Shown: positions 1 through 7,690 of the stretch, piece by piece
Layout: each line of letters begins with the position of its first letter
Numbering within the stretch: position 1 is the first letter of the stretch
Source of the DNA: Sphingomonas profundi
Lineage (GTDB): Bacteria; Pseudomonadota; Alphaproteobacteria; Sphingomonadales; Sphingomonadaceae
Length of the DNA: 64,000 nucleotides
Direction: 5' to 3'
Assembly: GCF_009739515.1 (NCBI RefSeq)
Contig: NZ_CP046535.1
Coordinates: forward strand, 4,344,501-4,408,500
Made by a program: the position numbers and the translations under genes
The notes under the pieces: generated by a model
Told to the model about the DNA's origin: nothing
The model's database searches: none
What the model saw: only the letters and a program-made list of their open reading frames with translations

Positions 1-218
1 AGCTGGTCGCGCACGTCGACGAGCGCTTCGCCGATCAGGGTTTCGGCCGCGCCGTCCCCATACATCTCGGCCGTATCGATGAGCGTCATGCCGAGTTCGA
101 CGCCCGTGCGCAGCGCTGCAGTCTCGGCTGCGCGGCGTTCGTGTCGCTCGCCCATCATCCAGGTGCCCTGGCCGAGCGCGGGCACCGTCTCTCCGCCTGG
201 GAGCGTCACAGTCTTCAT
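1..218 (-). CDS. aldo/keto reductase, N-terminal part (runs off the window)
   Basis: The first 72 residues can be read on the minus strand from an ATG ([20 protein letters not shown]...). The pattern G-x-x-x-P-x-L-G-x-G-T-W followed by D-T-A-E-M-Y-G-D-G is the cofactor-side N-terminus of the aldo/keto reductase family; the D of DTAEMYG and the Y are the conserved catalytic Asp and Tyr. These are NADPH-dependent cytosolic carbonyl reductases. The remaining three quarters of the gene lie left of the window, so subfamily and substrate cannot be told. No link to its neighbours is evident. Confidence 0.85.
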
Positions 219-334
219 GTTGGTCTCACTGCGGGAATGGCTGACGACCTAACGCCGGATATTTCGTTCCGGTGCAACGACCCGCCTGCAATTGCGGACG
301 ACGAGGGGAGTGGCTTGACGCAGAATTGGTCGCC

Positions 335-904
335 CTACCGCGAAGGCTCTGTGCCGGGCCGCAAGTACGCGAACATGTGCGCGACATAGTCGGGCTTGCC
401 CAGCTCGACGCCTTGCGCGCGCAGGATGGCGTAGGCGGTCATGACGTGGAAGTAGAATTGGGGGAGCGCCCAGTCGCGGACATATTGTTCGGCGGTAAGG
501 TCGAACACCATGCCTTGCGGCAGGGCGTGGGCGATCGGCGTCGCCGGATCGATCCCCGGCGTGTCCGCGGCGATCGCCTGCACGAGCGTCAGGGTCTCGG
601 CGATCCTGGCGCGGGCGTCGGCGATGGAGCCAGGATGCTCGGACGCGTTGCGGCCTTCGTCCAGCAGAACCGCGATCGAGGTCGGGAACGTCTCCTGCCG
701 CAGCCGGAACACCCCCTCCTGCGCCTGCACGCACGCGAACCGGATCTGGATCGAGAGCGGGAACATGTCGGGAGCGAGGCGGGCGGTGAGTAGCGCCCGC
801 GCTCCGTCGCTCAATGTTTCCTCGGCCTTGCCGAGCCACGCTGAAAGCGCCCCCAGCATCTGGGTGTGGGTCGGTATCAGGATGTCGTTCAGCATCATCA
901 TCAT
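335..904 (-). CDS. DUF1993 family protein
   Basis: A 189-residue protein matching the DUF1993 family in length and layout: an N-terminal helix with L-x-x-W-L-x-K-A, the segment R-L-A-P-D-M-F-P-L, and a C-terminal Y-F-H-V-x-T-A-Y-A-I-L-R motif followed by G-K-x-D-Y. The fold of the family resembles DinB-like four-helix bundles; the function is unknown. The start is blurred by four consecutive ATG codons (MMMM), so the real start may be any of them. It lies in the same direction as the aldo/keto reductase but about 115 bases away, so an operon is possible but unproven. Confidence 0.8.
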   Translation of the reverse strand: MMMMLNDILIPTHTQMLGALSAWLGKAEETLSDGARALLTARLAPDMFPLSIQIRFACVQAQEGVFRLRQETFPTSIAVLLDEGRNASEHPGSIADARARIAETLTLVQAIAADTPGIDPATPIAHALPQGMVFDLTAEQYVRDWALPQFYFHVMTAYAILRAQGVELGKPDYVAHMFAYLRPGTEPSR

Positions 905-995
905 TTTTCTTCTTCAACGCGCGATCTTCTCGATCTCTCGGGGCAATATCCAAGGAGATCGACGATGGTGCGCGAGATTGCACCTCCTCCGGTGG

Positions 996-1253
996 CTAGA
1001 GCCCGACCTTCTTGAGAGCTGAGGCCAGCTCCGCGTCGATCGCAGGATCGTCGTTGGGCGTGACCCGATTGAGCGCGGTCTGCACCCGGCTTTGCGCTAC
1101 CTGGAATGTCTTGTGCCGGACCTCGCGCGCGGCGTTGGTTCGCCATGACGGGCTTTCGCCGAGCAATGCCGACCACCTGGCTTCTTCCGCTGCGAGGATT
1201 GCCAGGGCCAGCCGCAGACCATCACGCCGCCCATGGGCGTAATCGTCGGACAT
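996..1253 (-). CDS. small hypothetical protein, 85 aa
   Basis: I do not recognise a named family. The protein (MSDDYAHGRRDGLRLAL...) is soluble, helix-rich and charged, with a repeated A/E-rich first half and a C-terminal ASALKKVGL. The longer reading frame upstream is not credible. The start is chosen because a GAGGAG ribosome site lies six bases before the ATG used here; the in-frame ATG two codons earlier would sit directly on that site. Codon use is normal for the region, which supports a real gene. Function unknown. Confidence 0.55.
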   Translation of the reverse strand: MSDDYAHGRRDGLRLALAILAAEEARWSALLGESPSWRTNAAREVRHKTFQVAQSRVQTALNRVTPNDDPAIDAELASALKKVGL

Positions 1254-1439
1254 CGGCATCTCCTCAAGGTTCGCGCCATTGCTACGGTCTCTTCGCCTGG
1301 GGTTCCAGGTGGCTACTTGAAGCGGGCTCAGGCAGCGCACCGATAAACGCCGCCGTGGCCCATAGCTCCTGGGCGGTTGGATTGTACCCGCTGCCTGCCC
1401 ATCTTCCAGGCCTGAGGAACACCAGAACGGACGGACGAG

Positions 1440-1703
1440 ATGGCAGGCGGTTGGACAAGGGATGGCGCGATCCAGGATCAGATCGACGACACGGTCACCG
1501 ACGCCGTTCTGTTCGCACGATCGCGCATACCGGCGGGGGATGGGGAGACGCATTGCACGGAGTGCGGCGACGAGATCCCCGAGGCCCGCCGCCGCGCCCT
1601 CAATGGCGTGCGCACGTGCGTACAATGCCAGTCGGAGCGCAACAGCCGTCCGACGCTTTCCGCCTTCAACCGGCGCGGCAGCAAGGACAGCCAGCTGCGG
1701 TAA
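1440..1703 (+). CDS. DksA/TraR-type C4 zinc-finger protein
   Basis: An 87-residue protein with the short DksA/TraR (YbiI-like) layout: an N-terminal acidic helix (D-Q-I-D-D-T-V), then the four-cysteine finger C-T-E-C-G-D-x-I-P-E-A-R-R-A ... C-V-x-C-Q near residues 39-63, followed by a basic tail. The C-x2-C...C-x2-C spacing and the G-D-x-I-P-E-A-R consensus are diagnostic. Such short members lack the long coiled coil of DksA; whether this one binds RNA polymerase's secondary channel is not known. It stands alone, divergent from the 85-aa gene to its left. Confidence 0.85.
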   Translation: MAGGWTRDGAIQDQIDDTVTDAVLFARSRIPAGDGETHCTECGDEIPEARRRALNGVRTCVQCQSERNSRPTLSAFNRRGSKDSQLR

Positions 1704-1729
1704 GTGGGCGCTACCGCCTGCGCCCCGGC

Positions 1730-2071
1730 TTAGCCTGACTTCGGCTTGCGAGGCGCCTTCGGCTTGGGAAGAGGCAGCTCCGTGGTCGTGATCCGGACGA
1801 GCTCGACCAGCCAGTCGCTGTCGTCCCACCGATCGGCATCGACCAGCAGGCATGGCTTTGCGCCGGGATAGGGTGGGGCTTCCTCGATGCTCCCGGCAAA
1901 CGCCCGTCCGCCTGCGGTCGGCTTGATGAAGAGCTGGCCGTCGCAGATCATCCCGAACATCTTGCCGGCGCAGTATAGGCCATGTTCTCCGAACATCGGC
2001 TTGGCCGAAACGTCACCGGCTGCGGAGAGCTGGTCGACGATGAAGGCGACGGTGTGTTTGTCGGTAGCCAT
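1730..2071 (-). CDS. TfoX N-terminal domain family protein
   Basis: A 113-residue protein with the TfoX_N pattern: V-x-K-P-M-F-G-E-H-G-L-Y near residue 23-33, then F-G-M-I-x-D-G-Q-L-F-I-K-P, and a C-terminal W-L-V-E-L-V segment. Stand-alone TfoX_N proteins are common in alphaproteobacteria and their role is unclear; TfoX itself regulates competence in gammaproteobacteria, but that cannot be carried over. The chosen ATG begins the conserved domain; the frame is open 32 codons further upstream without conserved sequence. The last residues are a basic P-K-A-P-R-K-P-K tail. Confidence 0.75.
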   Translation of the reverse strand: MATDKHTVAFIVDQLSAAGDVSAKPMFGEHGLYCAGKMFGMICDGQLFIKPTAGGRAFAGSIEEAPPYPGAKPCLLVDADRWDDSDWLVELVRITTTELPLPKPKAPRKPKSG

Positions 2072-2144
2072 GAGGCCAGCATGTCCGATCCGAGAGGCAA
2101 TTTCGAGGTGCTGATCTGCGCTCGAGTACGAAAGATGCGTACGC

Positions 2145-3035
2145 CTATGCTGCGACGGCCGTATCAAGGGAGAAGCGCGCTCGAAGATCGTCTTCGGTCA
2201 CGATCTCGATTGCGGAGCCGTTGCGTCGTAGCTCCTCGGCGCGCCGATAATCGGCGCTGGCATGAGCGAACCTGCCAAACGGCTGATCCTTGCTGATAAC
2301 GAACATCGTGGACGTCGTGCCGACCGACGCGACAACCCGGGCACCCATCCCAGCCAACCAAAGACCCAGAGCGCCGTCACGTGGCGCGCCCAGGATTGCG
2401 GCGCGATGCCCTTTGAGGGGGCCATCTGCTGCCGCTTTCGGTGCCGGACCGCCGCGCGGATGCGCTGGCTTCAGCCAAGTGGCCAGATCGATCCCGGTGT
2501 GATCCATCGCTTTCACAATCACCATTCCGGCGGCACGAGCATCGCTCAATGCATCATGATGCTTGTGGCGGACCCCGAGGAAGCGGGTGAGCACATTCAG
2601 CCGGTGGCTGGGAAGGTCGGGCCAGGCGCGCTTGGCGACCCGCACGCTGTCGAGCCATGTCGTCTCGATCATCTCGCGCCGATGCACGCGGCAGGCGGCG
2701 GCGAGCGCTCCCTTATCGAAAAAGGAGTGCGCTACGGTCGTCCGCCCTGAGAGATGGCCATCGACGACTGCGTGGATGTGCGCAAAGGTGGGTTGCCCAA
2801 CGACGTGATCGCAGCTGATGCCGTGGATTCGCGTGTTGAACGACGAGAACTCATCGCACGGATCTACGAGGCTCTCGTACGCGAACACCTCCGAACCATC
2901 CCGAAAGCCGACGATCCCGATCTGGCAGATGCTGCTGACACGTGAGCATGCGGTCTCGACATCGACGACGACGAAGTCGACCTGCGGCTCATCGTCACAC
3001 GGCGCCGCTGCAAAGTCCGTTTTTGAAGCTGTCAT
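2145..3035 (-). CDS. DEDDh 3'-5' exonuclease with C-terminal BRCT-like domain
   Basis: The N-terminal half is a DnaQ-type exonuclease: Exo I V-V-D-V-E-T, Exo II V-A-H-S-F-F-D, and Exo III H-D-A-L-S-D-A-R-A-A-G supply the D-E-D-D-h metal ligands. After a proline/alanine linker the last ~90 residues (L-K-G-H-R-A-A-I-L-G ... G-A-R-V-V-x-S-V) look like the BRCT fold seen at the end of DNA ligases. Exonuclease-BRCT proteins are known outside DNA polymerase III and are presumed to act in repair. The start is uncertain: in-frame ATGs also exist 9, 21 and 69 bases upstream. It precedes xth and ligD on the same strand, suggesting a repair neighbourhood. Confidence 0.8.
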   Translation of the reverse strand: MTASKTDFAAAPCDDEPQVDFVVVDVETACSRVSSICQIGIVGFRDGSEVFAYESLVDPCDEFSSFNTRIHGISCDHVVGQPTFAHIHAVVDGHLSGRTTVAHSFFDKGALAAACRVHRREMIETTWLDSVRVAKRAWPDLPSHRLNVLTRFLGVRHKHHDALSDARAAGMVIVKAMDHTGIDLATWLKPAHPRGGPAPKAAADGPLKGHRAAILGAPRDGALGLWLAGMGARVVASVGTTSTMFVISKDQPFGRFAHASADYRRAEELRRNGSAIEIVTEDDLRARFSLDTAVAA

Positions 3036-3113
3036 GACCGGCATGCCTCGGAACATACCATGTCCAGTCCGTTGCGACAGAGGCGTTGCGTAACACTCCG
3101 TCAAGTTCGCCGA

Positions 3114-3947
3114 TCAGGTGGAGGAGGCGGGCCTTGCCTTGGCTTTTCGCCGCGCCGAGGCCGGTGGCTTCGCGTCGTCGGCGAGCTCGATCCAGACCGG
3201 CGCGTGGTCGCTGGTCTTCTCCCAGCCGCGCACCTCGCGGTCGACCTGGGCGTCGACCAGCCGCTTGGCCAGCGCCGGGCTCAGCAGGAAGTGATCGATG
3301 CGCAGGCCGGCATTCCGCGCATAGGCATTCCGGAAATAGTCGAAGAAGGTGTAGATCGTCTCATCCGGATGGATGGTCCGCAGCGCGTCGGTCCAGCCTT
3401 GCTCCAGCAGCCGAAAGAACGCCGCACGGACCTCAGGTGCGAACAGCGCGTCCTCGGTCCAGCGCTCGGGTTTGTAGACGTCCCGCTCGGTCGGCATCAC
3501 GTTGAAGTCGCCGGCAAGCACCACCGGCGCGCCAGAGGCGAACAGCGCTGCGGCGTGTTCGATCAGCGCGTCGAACCAGGCCATCTTGTAGTCGAACTTG
3601 GGCCCGGGCCGCGGATTGCCGTTGGGCAAATAGAGCCCGGCGATCAGCACGCCGTTGACGGCGGCTTCGAGGTAACGGCTCTGCGCGGGACCGGGATCGC
3701 CCGGCAGCCCGCGACGGGTCTCGTGGATCTTGCCGACGCGGCTGAGGATGGCGACACCGTTCCAGCTCTTCTGACCGTGCCAGATCGCGTCGTAGCCGAG
3801 ATCGCGGATCGGCACTTCCGGGAACTTCTCGTCCGGCGCCTTCAGCTCCTGTAGGCAGACGATATCGGGTTGCTCCTCCTCGAGCCAGCGGAGGAGGACG
3901 GGGAGGCGGCCGTTGATGCCGTTCACATTGTAGGTGGCGATCTTCAT
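3114..3947 (-). CDS. xth: exodeoxyribonuclease III
   Basis: A 277-residue exonuclease III/AP endonuclease of the EEP family. Family motifs are in order: M-K-I-A-T-Y-N-V-N-G-I at the start, C-L-Q-E-L-K (metal-binding Glu), W-N-G-V-A-I-L-S, L-Y-L-P-N-G-N, the catalytic G-D-F-N-V near residue 146, R-I-D-H-F-L-L-S and the terminal S-D-H-A-P-V (catalytic Asp-His pair). It removes 3' blocking groups and incises abasic sites. A short basic tail (A-R-R-K-A-K-A-R) extends the usual length. It lies one base downstream of the ligD stop and is probably cotranscribed with it. Confidence 0.93.
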   Translation of the reverse strand: MKIATYNVNGINGRLPVLLRWLEEEQPDIVCLQELKAPDEKFPEVPIRDLGYDAIWHGQKSWNGVAILSRVGKIHETRRGLPGDPGPAQSRYLEAAVNGVLIAGLYLPNGNPRPGPKFDYKMAWFDALIEHAAALFASGAPVVLAGDFNVMPTERDVYKPERWTEDALFAPEVRAAFFRLLEQGWTDALRTIHPDETIYTFFDYFRNAYARNAGLRIDHFLLSPALAKRLVDAQVDREVRGWEKTSDHAPVWIELADDAKPPASARRKAKARPASST

Positions 3948-3948
3948 C

Positions 3949-6201
3949 CTACAGGTCCGGCAGCACCTGGTCGGCGCGCCCCCAGCCGATCAGATCCTTC
4001 GACGCCGCCCGCTTCAGCAGCTCCGCCGCGTCGCCGACATGCCAGCGCGAGGCGCCGTCAAGCGTCCGCAGCTCCTCCCAGGTGATCGGCACCGCCACCG
4101 GCGCATGTTCGCGGGCCCGCGCGCTGTATGGCATGACCGCGGTCGCGCCGCGCTGGTTGCGCAGATAGTCGACGAAGATCCGTCCCGTCCGCTTGGCCTT
4201 GGCGAGAGCTGCCGTGAACCGGTCGGGTTCGGTCTGCGCCAGCACCTGCGCGAAGCGGTGGGCGAAGTCCTTAACCGCCGGCCACTCGGCTTGGGGTGTG
4301 AGCGGCGCGATGACGTGGACGCCCTTGCCGCCGGTCACCATCGGGAAGGTCACCAGCCCCATTTGCCCGAGCAGCTCCTGGACGTGGAACGCCGCCGAGA
4401 TGACGTCCTTGAAGTCGAGGCCTTCGTCCGGATCGAGATCGAACACCAGCCGGTCGGCCTTCTCGACATCCTCGATGCGCGCGCCCCAGCCGTGGTACTC
4501 GATCGTGCCCATCTGGACGCAGGTGACCAGCCCCTCGGCATCGTCGACGAACAGATAGTCTTCGTCGTGCCCGTCCTTTTCCCGAATGCCGACATGGTGG
4601 ACGTGATCGCCGAAGCTGCCGGCGTCGTGTTTCTGGAAGAAGCATTTCTTGCCGCGTCCCTGCGGGCAACGGACCAGGCTGATCGGCCGGCTGCCGGCCC
4701 AGGGCAGCATGATCCCCGACACCGTCTGGTAATAGTCGGCGAGCTCCCCCTTGGTGATCTTGCCCTCAGGGAAGATCACGCGCTCGCGGTTGGTGACGCG
4801 AACCTTGGTTGCCGCCGGTGCCGTGGCGGTGGCCTCGACCTCGGCGACCGGTGCCTCCTTCTCGACGACGACGGCTTCCGCCTTCTTGTCGAGCCGCAGC
4901 CCGAGATAGCTCGAGTGGCGCAGCACGCCGTCGCCGGTGACCTCCATGAACGCGATCTCGGCGACGAGCTTGGGCTGGATCCAGTGGGCGCCGCGCACCG
5001 CCGCGCGTGGCGCCTCGACGGTCGGCGTCTTGACCTCGAGCGGCGCCATCAGCCCCATCAGCTTGTCGATCTCGTCGGCGGTGTAGCCGGTACCGGCCTT
5101 GCCGGCGTAGCGCAGCTTGCCATCCTCGTTGACCCCGAGCAGCAGCGCACGGAATCCGCGCTGCTTGTCCGACGGGGTCCAGCCGACGATCACGAACTCC
5201 TGGCGCTTGATGCACTTGGTCTTGACCCAGCTGCCCGAGCGCGAGCCGACGTACTTCGCATCGGCTCGCTTGGAGATGACGCCCTCAAGGCCGGCCTCGC
5301 AGAAGGTGCCGAACAGCTCCTCACCGCGGCCGACGATGTGATCGGAGTAGCGGATCTTGGACGTGCCCGAGCCGATCAGCGCGGCGAGCTTCTCCTTGCG
5401 TTCGGTCAGCGGCCGGTTCGTCAGGTCCTCGCCGTCGAGCGCGAGCAGGTCGAACGCGTAGTACAGGATCGAGCCAGGGTCTTCCTTCAGTGCATTCTGC
5501 AACGCCTGGAAGCTGGTCCGGCCCTCGGCATCGAGCACGACCGCCTCACCGTCGAGCAGTGCCGAGGAGACATCGAGCGTGGCGGCATCCGCGACGACGG
5601 GCGCGAACTTGTCGGTCCAGTCGAGGCCCGAGCGCGTGTGCGCGCGGCCATCACCGCCGCCGATCGAGATCAGCGTGCGATAGCCGTCATACTTCATCTC
5701 GTGCAGCCAGGCGTTGCCGGCGGGCACATGGTCGACGAGCGTGGCCAGCTGGACCGGTCGGAACGGCGGGGCGACGCCTTCCGGCTTGGCATTCTTCGTC
5801 CGACGTGCCGGCACGGGAGTGGATGCTGCCGGCGGCTCCGCCTTCGCAGCGCTCGCCTGCTTCTTCGTCGGTTTCTTGCCGGCCGCGATCTCGGCCATGG
5901 TCAGTCCACTCTCGACGCCGGTGAGGTGCGTCGTCACGAGATCGTCGGAGCCGCCGGTATGCTCGTCGGCAACCTTGCGCAGCAGCCAGTTCTCGCCCTT
6001 TTCGCGGCCGCGTGGCTTCAGGCGGATCATGATCCACTCGCCCTTCATGCGATGGCCGTGAAGGATGAAGTGGAGATGCCCCTCGGGGATGGTCTTGCGC
6101 GGATCCTTGCCGGCGATCGACTCCCAGGCGCCGTTATCCCACTTGAAAACCCGTTGAAAGCAGCGTTGCGTGCCAAACTGAGCCCCTTTCGATGGGGTCA
6201 A
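3949..6201 (-). CDS. ligD: ATP-dependent DNA ligase LigD, N-terminally truncated
   Basis: A 750-residue LigD. Residues ~18-80 are only the C-terminal end of the phosphoesterase domain (F-K-W-D-N-G-x-W ... G-H-L-H-F-I-L-H-G). The ligase domain follows at ~148-440 with the nucleotidyl lysine in E-M-K-Y-D-G-Y-R (K170) and K-T-K-C-I-K near its end; the primase-polymerase domain covers ~465-750 with F-D-L-D-P-D-E carboxylates. LigD normally works with Ku in end joining. About 120 residues, including the His/Arg/Asp phosphoesterase site, are missing and replaced by MTPSKGAQFGTQRC, which begins at a TTG inside a sequence resembling an IS21 end. Ligase and polymerase parts look intact. No ku gene is in the window. 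Confidence 0.9.
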   Translation of the reverse strand: MTPSKGAQFGTQRCFQRVFKWDNGAWESIAGKDPRKTIPEGHLHFILHGHRMKGEWIMIRLKPRGREKGENWLLRKVADEHTGGSDDLVTTHLTGVESGLTMAEIAAGKKPTKKQASAAKAEPPAASTPVPARRTKNAKPEGVAPPFRPVQLATLVDHVPAGNAWLHEMKYDGYRTLISIGGGDGRAHTRSGLDWTDKFAPVVADAATLDVSSALLDGEAVVLDAEGRTSFQALQNALKEDPGSILYYAFDLLALDGEDLTNRPLTERKEKLAALIGSGTSKIRYSDHIVGRGEELFGTFCEAGLEGVISKRADAKYVGSRSGSWVKTKCIKRQEFVIVGWTPSDKQRGFRALLLGVNEDGKLRYAGKAGTGYTADEIDKLMGLMAPLEVKTPTVEAPRAAVRGAHWIQPKLVAEIAFMEVTGDGVLRHSSYLGLRLDKKAEAVVVEKEAPVAEVEATATAPAATKVRVTNRERVIFPEGKITKGELADYYQTVSGIMLPWAGSRPISLVRCPQGRGKKCFFQKHDAGSFGDHVHHVGIREKDGHDEDYLFVDDAEGLVTCVQMGTIEYHGWGARIEDVEKADRLVFDLDPDEGLDFKDVISAAFHVQELLGQMGLVTFPMVTGGKGVHVIAPLTPQAEWPAVKDFAHRFAQVLAQTEPDRFTAALAKAKRTGRIFVDYLRNQRGATAVMPYSARAREHAPVAVPITWEELRTLDGASRWHVGDAAELLKRAASKDLIGWGRADQVLPDL
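6166..6201. repeat. IS21-end-like remnant at the ligD truncation
   Basis: On the minus strand this stretch reads TTGACCCC, then GGGGCTCA, then GGCACGCAA. The left end of the complete IS21-family element at 58.4-60.9 kb has the same order (GTTGACCCC, GGGGCTGA, GGCGTGCAA). The match is approximate, with small gaps, but it falls exactly where LigD homology stops. I infer that an IS21-type event cut off the 5' end of ligD and left its tip behind. Confidence 0.4.
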
Positions 6202-6235
6202 GGATCGATGCGGTGGTCGATCAGACTTGAAAGGT

Positions 6236-6264
6236 ACGCGGCTGGATGAGTGATCCAGCCGCGT
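6236..6264 (-). terminator. 12-bp perfect hairpin, terminator-like
   Basis: ACGCGGCTGGAT and ATCCAGCCGCGT form a perfect 12-bp stem with a 5-base loop. It lies 12 bases downstream of the stop of the small minus-strand gene remnant to its right and before ligD. On the minus strand it is followed only by a weak T tract (ACCTTTC), so it is a probable but not classical intrinsic terminator. Confidence 0.6.
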
Positions 6265-6276
6265 AGGACCGAGCGG

Positions 6277-6440
6277 CTAGTCCTTCAGCTTCTTGCCTGC
6301 CTTCTCGAGCATGTTGCCGGTGGCGTCCGCCGCCTTGTCGGCGCCGTTCGAGATGGCCTTTCCAGCCTTATTGGCACCGTTGGTGATGGCGCTTCCTGCT
6401 CGGTCCGCGGTCGCTTCGACGCTGTCGCCTATGCGGACCG
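6277..6440 (-). pseudogene. small alanine/asparagine-rich protein, N-terminus lost to an IS3 fragment
   Basis: The minus strand encodes about 50 residues of an amphipathic, repetitive peptide (A-D-R-A-G-S-A-I-T-N-G-A-N-K-A-G-K-A-I-S-N-G-A-D-K-A-A ... L-E-K-A-G-K-K-L-K-D). The repeated (S/T)NGA(N/D)KAxxA unit suggests a small helical stress or surface peptide; I cannot name the family. Upstream of about base 6440 the frame turns into the antisense of a transposase, so the natural start is missing. A strong hairpin follows the stop, as expected for a once functional gene. Confidence 0.5.
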
Positions 6441-6827
6441 AGCTGCCGCTCGCCGGCCTGATGATGGCGGCCCAGCGGCAGCGACCAGCGGCCGGCCTCA
6501 TCTTCCACTCCGACCGTGGGTCGCGATACGCTGCTGGCGCCTATGCCGATCACCTGACGGCAATCGGTGCGGTGCCCTCGATGAGCCGCACCGGCAACAG
6601 CTACGATAATGCCCCGATGGAGAGTTTCCTCCTCACCGTGAAGGTCGAGCTGGTCCACCGATGCCGGTGGCCGACCCAGGCCGAAGCTCGACAGGCGCTG
6701 TTCGGTTACATCGAAGGCTACTACAACCGCCACCGCATGCACTCGGCCCTCGGGTATCTAACCCCCGAACAGGCCGAGCAACGCATGACCGGCTAACCCA
6801 GCGTGTCCGCTGAACCGAGGGAAGATC
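6440..6827 (+). mobile_element. IS3-family element, 3' end only
   Basis: The plus strand carries the last ~110 residues of an IS3-type OrfB transposase, ending at 6796: H-S-D-R-G-S-R-Y (second catalytic Asp), S-x-T-G-N-S-Y-D-N-A-P-M-E-S-F (catalytic Glu) and Y-N-R-H-R-M-H-S-A-L-G-Y-L-T-P. Just after the stop lies a typical IS3 inverted-repeat tip (TGTCCGCTGAACCGAGG). The OrfA part, the first catalytic Asp and the left end are absent. The left boundary is uncertain, between about 6430 and 6475. The fragment interrupts the small minus-strand gene to its left. Confidence 0.75.
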
Positions 6828-7230
6828 AGTCGCCTCCGTCGGGGGCCGACTGGACGCACACGCGGCGGCGTCAAGCATCCAGAACGGAATCTCCAGAGTT
6901 CGCTCAACTTACGTATCGACACGACTTACGCGTGCTATCGCCCCGGACGCCCTGACGATCCGCTCATGGATGCGGATCCGTTTCCCTCTCCCTCTCAAGG
7001 GATGCCAGCCATAGACTACCGTCGCTTCGTCAATCGCGCCGGTACCGTGGGTCTTGTGGTGATCGGTTGTACAACGAGAGCCGTCCTCGCACAGCGCTTG
7101 GCGGAACCGTTCAAGGTTCCAGCGATGCGCAGCGTCGTTGGAAAAGCGGTGTAGGATGGCTGACGCCGATCGAACATGCTGCTGCAACGGCCGCCAAGGC
7201 GGCCGAATGAACGCCGAAAACTCACCCTTA
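6828..7230. other. degenerate sequence without an intact gene
   Basis: No gene with family support was found. The minus strand has a readable piece (V-V-Y-G-W-H-P-L-R-G-R-G-K-R-I-R-I-H-E) resembling short proteins often found beside transposons, but it is not in a convincing gene. Most likely mobile-element debris lying between the IS3 and IS110 fragments. Confidence 0.35.
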
Positions 7231-7550
7231 GGTTGTTTAAGCAACCGGGGGATCCTCACTGCCTCGCAGATCGCCTTGACCGGGTCGATTTGTTCCGCTT
7301 TATATAAGCTTGTACATAGGCTGGCGGGATCAATCGCACCTCGTAAGTGAGTGGCTGGAGCTAACGCGCCCGTTGATGCGCCGCCGCGCACGCCTCGATG
7401 CCGATTAGGCACGGCTCCATCCCGCCAAGCAGCGCGAGTAGCCGGTCCCGCTTGACCTTTCGCCGCAGCACCGCCCGACCTTCCGCATCGACGCCGTGAA
7501 ACTGGGAGACGTTTTTTCGCGATGTTAAGGCTGATCGTGGCAATCTCCAT
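7230..7550 (-). pseudogene. IS110-family transposase, broken N-terminal part
   Basis: The minus strand begins M-E-I-A-T-I-S-L-N-I-A-K, the start of IS110 transposases. Within about 20 residues the frame shifts: the next stretch (F-H-G-V-D-A-E-G-R-A-V-L-R-R-K-V-K-R-D-R-L-L-A-L-L) is in another frame, followed by I-G-I-E-A-C-A-A-A-H. Later the first frame resumes with D-P-V-K-A-I-C-E-A-V-R. The DEDD transposase core and the C-terminal half are missing. The piece sits directly upstream of the catabolic cluster and marks its left edge. Confidence 0.6.
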
Positions 7551-7690
7551 GTGGGCGACTCCTTCCTGCTGATGGTCGATGACAGCACCACCATGGCACC
7601 ACTCGACGCCATAGGATGGGGGCCGACCAACTCATCAAGGTAGGCAGACACTTCTTGTTTTCACCACCGACAACAAGCAAGAGCGGAAGC

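Follow-up and report, generated by a model that had tools for sequence, protein, structure and literature searches.

The ligD2 locus and the other NHEJ genes of the genome

The DNA analyzed here, a stretch of 64,000 nucleotides from Sphingomonas profundi that we refer to as the window, carries near its left end a minus-strand open frame that encodes the ligase (LIG) and primase-polymerase (POL) parts of a LigD protein, preceded by a remnant of the phosphoesterase (PE) domain. The relevant features, in window positions, are listed below.

1-6142, minus strand: window part of an 8.3-kb block collinear with a relative from another genus, G240 (93.9% identity); it continues about 2.1 kb past window position 1
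1730-2167, minus strand: gene with a TfoX_N domain (Pfam)
2145-3104, minus strand: exonuclease gene, RNase_T (Pfam)
3114-3947, minus strand: xth, exodeoxyribonuclease III family, Exo_endo_phos (Pfam); begins 1 base past the ligD2 stop
3949-6201, minus strand: ligD2, a 5'-truncated LigD, 750 aa long when read from the TTG (ORF list, Pfam and NCBIfam)
4006-4755, minus strand: primase-polymerase domain, LigD_Prim-Pol (PF21686), residues 483-732, complete at 299 bits (Pfam)
4885-5163, minus strand: ligase C-terminal domain, DNA_ligase_A_C (PF04679), residues 347-439, complete (Pfam)
5215-5718, minus strand: DNA ligase adenylation domain, DNA_ligase_A_M (PF01068), residues 162-329, complete at 89 bits (Pfam)
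5896-5898, minus strand: alternative start ATG, giving 649 aa
6022-6150, minus strand: PE domain remnant, positions 66-107 of the 107 in the LigD_N profile (Pfam)
6028-6030, minus strand: alternative start ATG, giving 693 aa
6142/6143, no strand: junction at which collinearity with G240 and LigD homology end (DNA comparison)
6143-6430, no strand: stretch separating the cut from the IS remnant, with no second copy in the same genome and no long match in four relatives
6431-6828, plus strand: degraded 3' fragment of an IS3-family transposase, with rve domains (Pfam) and about 68-76% identity to IS3 transposase stretches of plasmids

A preliminary description made from the sequence letters had judged the ligase (with K170) and polymerase domains to be intact, and the profile searches agree. 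Both are complete in Pfam, the NCBIfam models TIGR02779 (LIG, 316 bits) and TIGR02778 (POL, 305 bits) score well above their cut-offs, and the catalytic lysine of the ATP-dependent ligase domain is K170 in TTG numbering, in the motif KYDGYR at 170. The gene has the ligase and primase-polymerase domains of an NHEJ DNA ligase D; it lacks the complete PE domain, with its active-site His, Asp and Arg, of a three-domain LigD, and also the adjacent ku of a Ku-LigD NHEJ operon. The LigD_N (PF13298) match reaches only 28 bits, under the 31.1-bit cut-off, and covers the C-terminal 40% of the profile, and TIGR02777, also a PE model, scores 43 bits where its cut-off is 144. The description had correctly placed xth beside ligD2; it lies directly downstream. 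Its exonuclease-BRCT neighbor is an exonuclease with an RNase_T domain, but no BRCT match was obtained with Pfam at E ≤ 0.001.

The genome, a single contig of 4,538,634 bases, has a complete ku-ligD1 operon at 1.20 Mb, which makes the window gene its second LigD (LigD2). It had been observed that the window holds no ku and proposed that the genome be searched for ku and for another, complete ligD. The sole Ku gene found is at 1.205 Mb and overlaps the gene for LigD1 (838 aa, full PE profile). In addition, a LigC-type ligase gene is located at 3.34 Mb and another ATP-dependent ligase gene at 3.06 Mb. A genome search with PF13298 for the lost N-terminal PE part matched only LigD1 and the window ligD2, and the separate ligC locus carries no PE part. 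At that locus (L135:6928-10474), ligC is followed by genes for an aldo/keto reductase, a phosphoesterase-like protein and a methyltransferase. The same three genes, 83% identical in DNA, are present in the probably acquired block to the left of the window, and in G240 they surround ligD2 together with ligC.

A complete orthologue and the position of the cut

Among 397 sampled genomes of the family, the nearest relative found for ligD2 is the LigD2 of G240, which is complete (842 aa) and 97.3% identical over window residues 20-750. It belongs to a cluster with the order ku (divergent), ligC, ligD2, xth and exonuclease. The collinear block spans 8283 bp at 93.9% identity and stops exactly at 6142, within the PE domain. 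The preliminary description had proposed that homology begins late in the PE domain and that unrelated sequence lies upstream of a natural PE loss. Both proposals fit the comparison, in which DNA homology sets in at 6142, at about residue 20 of the frame, and LigD homology ends there.

The proposed loss of the PE active-site residues is likewise evident from the partial profile match and from the motifs of the complete G240 orthologue, which are QKHDATRLHYDFRLEL at residues 45-60 and DHPLDY at residues 88-93. The window gene matches the G240 protein only from residue 110 on, and therefore all PE motifs are absent from it. We take the His, Asp, Arg and Tyr residues of these motifs (H42, H48, D50, R52, H84 and Y88) to be the active site. 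By alignment to LigD1, both motifs correspond to the Pseudomonas aeruginosa PE structure 2lj6. The domain order of the P. aeruginosa three-domain LigD (PE-LIG-POL) is also that of the complete orthologues from G240 and Sphingomonas faeni; unlike a LigD of this type, the window copy has its PE active site deleted.

Between the genome studied here and G240, rpoB is 88.0% identical (dS 0.37, dN 0.073), and ligD2 shows dS 0.22 and dN 0.011. Because the accessory gene is closer than rpoB, this comparison points to horizontal transfer, and the block with ligD2 was probably acquired in this way. The simplest reading of the PE loss is that it marks the boundary of a transferred or rearranged block, near a degraded IS3 remnant, with the cut made either at the time of transfer or later. 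Beyond 6142, four relatives match the flank only over short stretches, none longer than about 210 bases, and a search for where the DNA at 6143-6240 came from yielded no significant plasmid match and no second copy in the same genome. An assembly error at 6.14-6.2 kb is another explanation, and the proximity of the junction to a degraded IS remnant is in keeping with one. We nevertheless regard such an error as very improbable. The genome is a single contig, and the sequence across the junction from ligD2 occurs only once in it, which makes a collapsed repeat unlikely.

Two further observations concern these regions. Overlapping short ORFs at 6909-7651 (minus strand) resemble, by eye, a decayed IS110-type transposase, although they have no Pfam match. 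In G240, contig C1 matches the ligD2 stretch at 1125624, 2357103, 3365585 and 3654700, with xth adjacent at two of these positions, and this genome seems to hold several LigD genes.

LigD2 relatives with and without a PE domain

To place the gene among its relatives, we used the best 80 of 487 from a scan of genome contigs, and the resulting tree comprises 89 LIG-POL rows. One group holds 16 LigD1 rows, all 16 with ku within the compared stretch and none with xth adjacent. A second consists of complete LigD2s and includes the window gene, which pairs with that of S. faeni (98% SH-aLRT); in a codon tree, the G240 LigD2 is sister to the window ligD2 with full local support. Among 33 complete-type LigD2 loci, xth lies 45 bases or less downstream in 12 and ku is found in the flank of 23. 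The third group is a clade of 39 rows (99%) drawn from Sphingomonas, Sphingobium, Novosphingobium, Sphingopyxis, Hephaestia and Mesorhizobium, and 38 of these rows have no PE match. The remaining row, L105, has a PE domain with an in-frame stop.

After removal of duplicates with identical LIG-POL rows (L039 = L097 and L040 = L094), this clade represents 37 loci. In 34 of them xth is directly downstream, counting L104, L114 and L125, where the xth match is partial or split, and ku is in the flank of four, with ku sought within flanks of 6 kb or less. Fisher tests on gene order (p = 8.8e-7 for xth and 4.1e-7 for ku) ignore shared ancestry and are descriptive only. A PE-less LigD2 beside xth is, on this tree, an old and persistent form with a single older origin, and the window gene is outside it.

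The window gene does share with this clade its LIG-POL architecture, an xth gene directly downstream (as in 34 of the 37 PE-less loci) and the absence of an adjacent ku. This resemblance could suggest that it is simply a clade member that lacked a PE domain from the outset. We give this explanation virtually no chance, because the gene branches with complete LigD2s rather than inside the clade in both the LIG-POL and codon trees, and it retains a PE remnant that the clade lacks. Membership is refuted by the tree together with the 97% identical, complete copy in G240, and the PE loss in the window has a separate origin.

Across the 33 complete-type loci, L105 and the window gene, the PE domain is broken in three (the window gene, a frameshift in L078 and the stop in L105) and the Pol domain in one (a frameshift in L083), counts that are too few, in a sample of the best 80 of 487, for a claim of PE bias. 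One locus that looked PE-less in the match table, L156, was found by tblastn to be complete. L105 (the same as L151) is recombinant-like in that its LIG-POL falls in the PE-less clade and yet both PE and ku lie upstream. Seven Mesorhizobium loci (L092, L100, L103, L110, L114, L118 and L125) carry a PE-less LigD2 of the sphingomonad type. Among these, xth is not adjacent to LigD2 in L100, L103 and L110, and the match is partial or split in L114 and L125.

Possible fate and function of the shortened gene

The preferred reading, which we hold to be moderately likely as a statement of origin and function together, is that ligD2 is a horizontally acquired, cut second LigD that still works as a LIG-POL enzyme. 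The principal competing explanation is a dying gene, whose promoter, start and PE domain were taken by the cut too recently for decay to show, with LigD1-Ku doing the work. This is possible, though we incline to doubt it. The loss of upstream operon genes relative to G240 and the complete LigD1-Ku elsewhere in the genome are what it would predict, and the TTG start is weak. Moreover, a search of 5950-6700 for a consensus sigma-70 promoter gave none, although such a result says little for a sphingomonad.

Translation had been proposed to begin at the TTG. The open frame does run from TTG 6201, but anti-SD pairing there is nearly absent (-1.1 kcal/mol), compared with -8.3 kcal/mol at ATG 6030 and -6.8 kcal/mol at ATG 5898. 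The anti-SD measure is only a hint for start choice, since the ATG of ligD1 in the same genome has no such pairing (0.3 kcal/mol). If the gene is translated, a start at ATG 6030 or 5898 is most likely and would give a LIG-POL protein of 649-693 aa. Frames in the PE-less clade are mostly about 630-690 codons long. The two well-paired internal ATGs, and the persistence of the same LIG-POL form in that related clade, argue against a dying gene.

The same is true of the state of the frame, whose 750 codons from TTG hold no internal stop or frameshift in the ORF list. In pairwise comparison with G240, dN/dS is 0.060 for ligD2, which is below that of its intact neighbors (xth, 0.079; exonuclease, 0.225; TfoX gene, 0.25; ORF 335-904, 0.18). 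A branch codon model with 8 taxa puts omega at 0.057 for the window branch and 0.012 for the G240 branch, compared with a background of 0.053. For the window branch, an omega of 1 can be rejected (2dlnL 14.6); the difference between it and the G240 branch is marginal (2dlnL 3.9). By domain, omega on the window branch is 0.037 for LIG, 0.042 for POL and 0.19 for the PE remnant plus linker, the last value being indistinguishable both from 1 and from the background. Polarized counts of 10 replacement and 34 synonymous changes on the window branch versus 5 and 42 on the G240 branch (Fisher p = 0.16) reveal the slight excess of replacements that a dying gene might be expected to have. The preliminary description was to be given up if a complete LigD existed elsewhere and selection here was relaxed; LigD1 at 1.20 Mb is indeed complete, but selection is not relaxed, as omega on the window branch matches the background. 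The frame thus carries no decay signal. The branch may in part be older than the cut, and because selection before the cut is inseparable from selection after it, low dN/dS is no proof of use since then.

Under the preferred reading, of an acquired gene still in use, a second NHEJ-type cluster with the gene order seen in G240 would have arrived by horizontal transfer, and the window would hold its downstream part. The acquired or rearranged block would end inside the PE region of ligD2, and for this reason ku, ligC and the PE active site would be missing. The remaining open LIG-POL gene, followed directly by xth, would then, if translated, seal and fill ends or gaps. On its own, a LIG-POL LigD2 would presumably be unable to make 3'-phosphates or 3'-ribonucleotides ligatable. 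This step would have to be supplied by the neighboring Xth or by LigD1, if at all.

Several known systems are relevant to these possibilities. PMC8656161 describes the PE domain as converting 3'-phosphates to 3'-OH and trimming 3'-ribonucleotides, and Bacillus subtilis LigD (YkoU) as lacking it. This enzyme, like the window gene, has a ligase and then a polymerase domain with no PE (PMC8656161 and PMC4770248). Unlike B. subtilis LigD, which has no PE at all and acts with its own Ku, the window copy keeps a PE remnant and its genome has a second, complete LigD. According to PMC4770248, ends could be healed for the B. subtilis LigD by other enzymes, its ligase domain has 5'-dRP lyase activity, and together with an AP endonuclease it repairs abasic sites in vitro. 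In mycobacteria, ExoIII and XthA clean up 3' ends ahead of gap filling, and LigC1 interacts with both (PMC5663958). That mycobacterial set of LigC, Prim-PolC and ExoIII/XthA likewise combines a ligase and a primase-polymerase with exonuclease III-type enzymes acting on 3' ends (same paper), whereas its LigC and Prim-PolC are separate proteins and the link to xth in the window is one of gene order only. From gene order and this literature, LigD2 could serve to fill gaps and seal them, with Xth cleaning the 3' ends.

More speculatively, LigD2 might team up with Xth as a unit of two proteins for end healing or base excision. Xth would take over 3'-end cleaning and PE would be dispensable, hence its two losses: an ancient one in the clade now found across sphingomonads and Mesorhizobium, and another in the lineage of the window, where the shortened enzyme would still be in use. 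We consider this rather unlikely.

The PE-less architecture itself is already known, as LIG plus POL without PE is listed among nonconventional NHEJ types in PMC7719229, and the window gene alone is unsurprising to a specialist. In the literature searched, with subscription journals mostly outside its scope, we found neither a LigD-xth pair nor a PE-less LigD of sphingomonads described. The preliminary description had suggested a changed end-joining outcome as one possible consequence of the domain loss. For the cell, the presence of complete LigD1 and Ku means that a change in the main end-joining pathway need not follow from the loss of PE in ligD2. The complete G240 LigD2 and the PE-cut window LigD2, 97% identical over their shared part, together with the old PE-less clade beside xth, are natural material for asking if LigD can do without PE activity where its gene has an exonuclease III-type neighbor.
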